Shown here: positions 56,881 through 57,020 of the stretch, piece after piece
Layout of the letters: each line of letters begins with the position of its first letter
Position numbering within the stretch: position 1 is the first letter of the stretch
DNA from: an uncultured Bacteroidota bacterium
GTDB taxonomy: Bacteria; Bacteroidota; Bacteroidia; Chitinophagales; Chitinophagaceae
NCBI GenBank assembly: GCA_903905065.1
Contig: CAIVEW010000095.1
Coordinates: 62,001 to 126,000, forward strand
Direction of reading: 5' to 3'
Length of the DNA: 64,000 nt
Translations under genes and position numbers: made by a program
Notes under the pieces: generated by a model
The model's input: only the letters and a program-made list of their open reading frames with translations
Told to the model about the DNA's origin: nothing
Database searches by the model: none

Positions 56881-56903
56881 GAGACGTTGCACTGCAACGT
56901 CTC
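56881..56903. repeat. REP-like palindrome inside the RAYT coding sequence
   Basis: GAGACGTTGCA-C-TGCAACGTCTC, perfect 11-bp arms. Confidence 0.9.
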
Positions 56904-57020
56904 CCTCGCGATCAGCAACCTCTCCCCCGCTATGAGCAACGTCTCCCCCGTGTTCAGCAACGTCTCCCTCGCGATGAGGAACGAATCCCTCGCGATTAGC
57001 GATGTCTCGTTTGAAGCTAG
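56895..57020. repeat. 21-bp in-frame repeat array 1 inside RAYT (6 units)
   Basis: CAACGTCTCCCTCGCGATCAG / CAACCTCTCCCCCGCTATGAG / CAACGTCTCCCCCGTGTTCAG / CAACGTCTCCCTCGCGATGAG / GAACGAATCCCTCGCGATTAG / CGATGTCTCGTTTGAAGCTAG. Confidence 0.88.

Follow-up and report, generated by a model that had tools for sequence, protein, structure and literature searches.

The window, the whole 64,000-nucleotide stretch analysed here, includes a RAYT (TnpA_REP) gene, which encodes a domesticated transposase and has REP palindromes on both sides. Two more REPs lie within its reading frame, one in each of two loops of the protein, and each is adjoined by a 21-bp tandem array that extends from one REP arm. We consider it probable that such arrays stem from tandem duplications that are provoked by REPs, filtered by the reading frame, and tolerated in permissive loops. 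At the sequence level, comparison of about 150 related genes shows the arrays to be a common and fast-changing habit of this RAYT group, not a one-off.

By its sequence, the gene is a RAYT, most likely of group 4 (subclass 2.4). It has a single HUH motif followed by a tyrosine, as in RAYT/TnpA_REP proteins (IS200/IS605-like HUH-Y1). Residues H147, H149, and Y277 were invariant in alignments of 23 and of 55 proteins, as were the NHxH, WQ, and YI..N motifs. From the motif set of subclass 2.4 (NH[IFV]H, WQ, YIxNNP), NHIH and WQ were found, and the third motif reads YIITNTQ here. Two further features of subclass 2.4 (group 4) were also found, namely REPs with double feet and in-frame REP insertion into the gene: most genomic REP copies fetched had double GTAG feet (GTAGAGACGTTGCANTGCAACGTCTCTAC), and both internal REPs lie within the open frame. 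The protein matched the NCBIfam profile NF047646 with an E-value of 1.2e-12 and 47.9 bits, against a curated family cut-off of 80, which serves naming and is not a biological trait. The best-matching stretch was the C-terminal part, so the loop inserts may depress this score. A Pfam search of the protein gave no match. The best PDB match of the predicted fold was 4er8, a RAYT in complex with a REP hairpin (probability 1.00, E-value 2.3e-3, TM-score 0.56 by target length), and the predicted fold is that of a REP transposase. In the AF2 model, loop 1 is bounded by strands 40-44 and 111-115 and has pLDDT values of about 44-59, while those of loop 2 are about 41-58 across most of its length; both loops are predicted to be disordered.

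The loop-1 array was recovered by TRF at positions 56894-57008 (period 21, 5.5 copies, 76% matches, score 132). Over positions 56894-57020, the self-match at lag 21 was 77/106, and the maximum reached by the best lag (9-30) in 20,000 shuffles was 50. Unit 1 runs on from the right arm of the loop-1 palindrome, the 10-bp arm present in each unit being GCAACGTCTC, and the units are in frame with the minus-strand open reading frame, encoding ANREGFV/PHREGDV/AEHGGDV/AHSGGEV/ADREGDV. These results bear out the preliminary description, which had reported an in-frame 21-bp array continuous with a REP arm inside a RAYT. Six units had been counted, of which five are clear; the sixth matches unit 1 at 11/21 positions only. 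It had also been proposed that similarity falls with distance from the REP. However, identities of units 2-7 to unit 1 were 17, 18, 20, 17, 11, and 10 of 21, a non-monotone series in which unit 4 is the nearest, and across 17 arrays the copies near the REP were only weakly closer to the consensus (P = 0.18). The degraded second array, beside the loop-2 REP, had been overlooked. It grows from the opposite REP arm compared with loop 1, and its change-point coincides with the REP centre. Searching the gene's own genome yielded 35 matches to the REP pattern (up to 2 mismatches), with REPs dispersed, and the loop-1 array pattern was found at the RAYT only. Among the loci fetched, none of the other exact REPs of this genome had an adjoining array.

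Table 1 Features of the RAYT locus, in window positions
Feature	Position	Strand	Remark
RAYT (TnpA_REP) CDS	56302..57183	minus	293 aa, ATG start at 57183; ORF 56302-57192
HUH motif, H147-I-H149	56737..56745	minus	invariant alignment columns
Y277, likely catalytic tyrosine	56353..56355	minus	invariant alignment column
Loop 1, residues 45-110	56854..57051	minus	insert between two beta strands ahead of the HUH motif
Loop 2, residues 155-212	56548..56721	minus	follows the HUH motif and precedes the C-terminal helices
Internal REP, loop 1	56881..56903	minus	palindrome GAGACGTTGCACTGCAACGTCTC
Internal REP, loop 2	56675..56697	minus	palindrome/pattern match
Flanking REP, 3' side of RAYT	56244..56271	minus	palindrome/pattern match
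REP variant flanking RAYT, 5' side	57206..57236	minus	inverted repeat I4
Five clear 21-bp units, loop 1	56894..56998	minus	each a 10-bp REP arm plus an 11-bp spacer
Degenerate sixth unit, loop 1	56999..57019	minus	identity to unit 1, 11/21
Second 21-bp array, degraded, loop 2	56638..56684	minus	TRF score 66, 2.2 copies

Related RAYTs were retrieved with an alignment query; patterns built on the single protein hit its variable parts and no relatives in the genome and viral collections, and plasmid records contained two distant homologs only. The sample comprised 158 full-length RAYTs from the family, the order, and public genomes, or 152 after collapsing cores that were at least 85% identical. 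Loop 1 is mostly absent from these proteins but reaches 73 extra residues, and loop 2 has a median of 36 and a maximum of 156 residues. Palindromes were concentrated in the loops: the 152 RAYTs had 4.2 and 6.1 of them per kb there, whereas the core had 0.19 and the flanks 1.04. A 9-mer common to loop 2 and the gene's own flanking palindromes was found in 50/96 cases (permuted mean 13.2, maximum 21). Of the 152 RAYT genes, 65 had tandem arrays; array density was 1.68 and 3.41 per kb for the two loops, compared with 0.08 for the core. The period was a multiple of 3 in 77/78 loop arrays (range 9 to 108 bp), and the intergenic arrays within 700 bp of the gene had period remainders 0/1/2 of 30/27/20, in agreement with the earlier suggestion that frame preservation retains the array. 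The suggested expansion beside a REP arm was likewise borne out: in 50/78 loop arrays, the unit had sequence in common with an adjoining or included palindrome, versus 1/42 arrays more than 700 bp from the gene and 0/6 core arrays. The other 28/78 loop arrays had no related adjoining palindrome, implying that REPs are not the sole seed.

Several arrays had features of their own. Loop 2 of the RAYT L035 of a congener (G026:C152:1-1839) contained 21-bp units that are nearly perfect (GAGACGTTGCAGTGCATGCCT), and this array probably broke the assembly, since its units run up to the contig end. In L187, both loops carried arrays, with 99-bp higher-order repeats containing full REPs, and loop 2 had 156 aa. 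In loop 2 of L061, L150, and L167, some REPs lay within perfect 48-50 bp palindromes, which reached past the feet of the REP and looked like a flank copied back onto itself. A fixed polarity of the array relative to the REP was considered and rejected, with 22 arrays 5' and 18 arrays 3' of the palindrome.

Copy junctions were located with a change-point test, which takes the period as its sole input and finds where array matching ends inside the palindrome. Of 31 loop-array junctions in the detectable range, 25 were no further than a quarter half-length from the palindrome centre, where uniformity would predict 11.1 (P = 4e-7, a descriptive value until fresh genes are used, because the test was devised after the arrays had been seen). 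The typical unit is thus half a REP plus spacer, although six loop arrays repeated the whole REP instead. A central junction was seen in 2/12 intergenic arrays, a small sample (loops versus intergenic, Fisher P = 2e-4), so that either a hairpin model based on mutation alone leaves something out or the 12 cases do not suffice. The 7-mer detection rule bounds the shortest shared arm that could be seen; the scarcity of units extending beyond the palindrome centre is the robust part of the junction result.

The history of the locus was traced in congeners. An ortholog in one congener (L022) occupies the same locus, between the maeB/PTA and DUF1275 genes; its loop-1 REP agrees in both sequence and site, but is accompanied by one unit only. 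The dN/dS of the core between the two RAYTs was 0.113. In five other congeners, maeB lies directly next to DUF1275, and the site has neither RAYT nor REP. The simplest reading of these sequences is that the two species inherited the RAYT and its REPs (REPtron) from an ancestor that had gained them and that the array expanded here; it may instead have contracted in the congener, the direction resting on two genomes. A fixed length across species, proposed earlier as evidence of a conserved linker, is at odds with this difference in unit number and with a second case, L044 and L209, whose cores are 92% identical and whose loops have 55 and 125 aa. Downstream of the RAYT, beside L022, whole REPs plus spacer were found in tandem (TRF period 54, 3.5 copies), unlike the half-REP units of arrays inside the RAYT gene. 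The empty maeB-DUF1275 gap at L235 (G004) contained a short imperfect hairpin (GGTTGCTTTGCAGCC), which may have been the insertion target.

These observations suggest the following sequence of events. In the common ancestor of the species and its congener, a group-4 RAYT with flanking REPs would have arrived between maeB/PTA and DUF1275, and cognate REPs presumably inserted into two permissive, disordered loops of the protein, so that the REP would have preceded the array. Next to each internal REP, one REP arm and the adjacent loop DNA would then have undergone tandem duplication. The most likely cause is slippage of replication, or template switching, that was provoked by the hairpin and placed the copy junction near its tip. 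Duplications would survive only if their length was a multiple of 3 bp, since purifying selection still acts on the catalytic core, and the loop peptide would drift almost freely. The reading-frame filter accounts for the retention of the array, not for its origin. Pooled over arrays, pN/pS between adjacent copies was 0.76; the copies look nearly neutral and the core constrained (dN/dS 0.11). The presence of arrays did not follow the tree, with 47 changes as against a mean of 49.5 (range 43-59) after shuffling. Near-neutral tolerance under a reading-frame filter fits the data on selection, disorder, length, and the tree.

An origin driven by the RAYT itself, in which the transposase cuts and rejoins at internal REPs and leaves partial copies, is unlikely. 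The arrays do lie in the gene whose product acts on the palindrome, and a search of the gene's own genome placed the array there only. However, the junctions are at the apex, and characterised RAYTs cleave at CT or CA adjoining REP stem-loops (PMC8266576). Moreover, spacers are alike within an array, as expected from tandem duplication and not from repeated insertion. Such aborted transposition had been named as a possible seed of the array; the data do not support it, and the arm of the loop-1 REP that faces the array no longer has a GTAG foot, which the far arm retains. The missing foot also bears on the possibility that the array is selected as DNA, with the repeated REP arms serving as extra RAYT binding sites (decoys, autoregulation). 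Cognate REP sequence is frequent in the units and palindromes are enriched in the loops, as this possibility would predict, but the loop-1 units lack the GTAG foot, which is reported to be important for recognition and cleavage by characterised RAYTs (PMC8266576), and a single arm cannot form a hairpin. Conservation among copies was not significantly higher at arm than at spacer positions (0.833 and 0.799, P = 0.21, 16 arrays), and arrays appear and vanish independently of the tree. We regard selection on the DNA array as the least probable of the explanations weighed here.

Selection on the peptide is also very unlikely. The heptapeptide repeats would then be a functional spacer of tuned length, with which the in-frame loops and a pN/pS slightly below 1 are compatible. 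Against this, most relatives have no loop 1, loop length and sequence vary widely between close relatives, both loops are predicted to be disordered, and array periods span an order of magnitude. We infer that the repeat peptide has no function, and duplication provoked by REPs under a frame filter remains the explanation that we prefer.

In-frame tandem units of varying copy number in disordered segments are typical of coding minisatellites, which arise from replication slippage. The RAYT arrays share these properties, but their unit commonly holds an arm of the adjoining palindrome, and the junction is near the palindrome centre. Palindromic repeats in frame in coding genes, including dimers and clusters, were described by Di Nocera et al. 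2013 (PMC3733652), who also cite the RPE elements of Rickettsia. Those are whole elements in diverse host genes, whereas here half elements are multiplied in the gene of the cognate transposase.

In-frame REPs in subclass 2.4 have already been published. The text of Quentin et al. 2018 (PMC6006769) describes REPs inserted in frame in genes of subclass 2.4, as a rule between the HUH and Y motifs; MEME also revealed short DNA repeats in the variable domain. The present gene resembles subclass 2.4 TnpA_REP (Bertels group 4), the RAYTs of Bacteroidetes/Cyanobacteria described in that text, in its NHxH and WQ motifs, double-foot REPs, REPs in frame inside the gene, variable HUH-Y insertion, and short repeats. 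The text of that paper, supplementary figures S6/S10 aside, does not mention units that combine half a REP with a spacer, junctions centred in the palindrome, or a corresponding REP and array in a second loop ahead of HUH. With the same reservation about S6/S10, our additions are limited to how the unit is built from half a REP, where the junction falls, the counterpart in loop 1, the statistics on reading frame, and the history of the locus.

The occurrence of REPs within RAYT genes can therefore be restated from an anecdote into a measurable rule: two loops only, periods in multiples of 3, and units ending near the palindrome centre. The arrays offer a natural record of short hairpins generating tandem repeats in bacteria, and they advise caution, since the repeat-rich loops of these transposases need not be functional domains. 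It is a doubtful but conceivable extension that group-4 RAYTs keep rewriting their own loops, with internal REP hairpins in the coding sequence breaking or stalling near the tip and half a REP plus spacer being added in frame per event. If true, transposase and target palindrome would be physically tied while the protein surface stays diverse. Elsewhere in the window, away from the RAYT array, a perfect 7-bp repeat of AAGTCGT was found at 20446-20478, in 4.7 copies.
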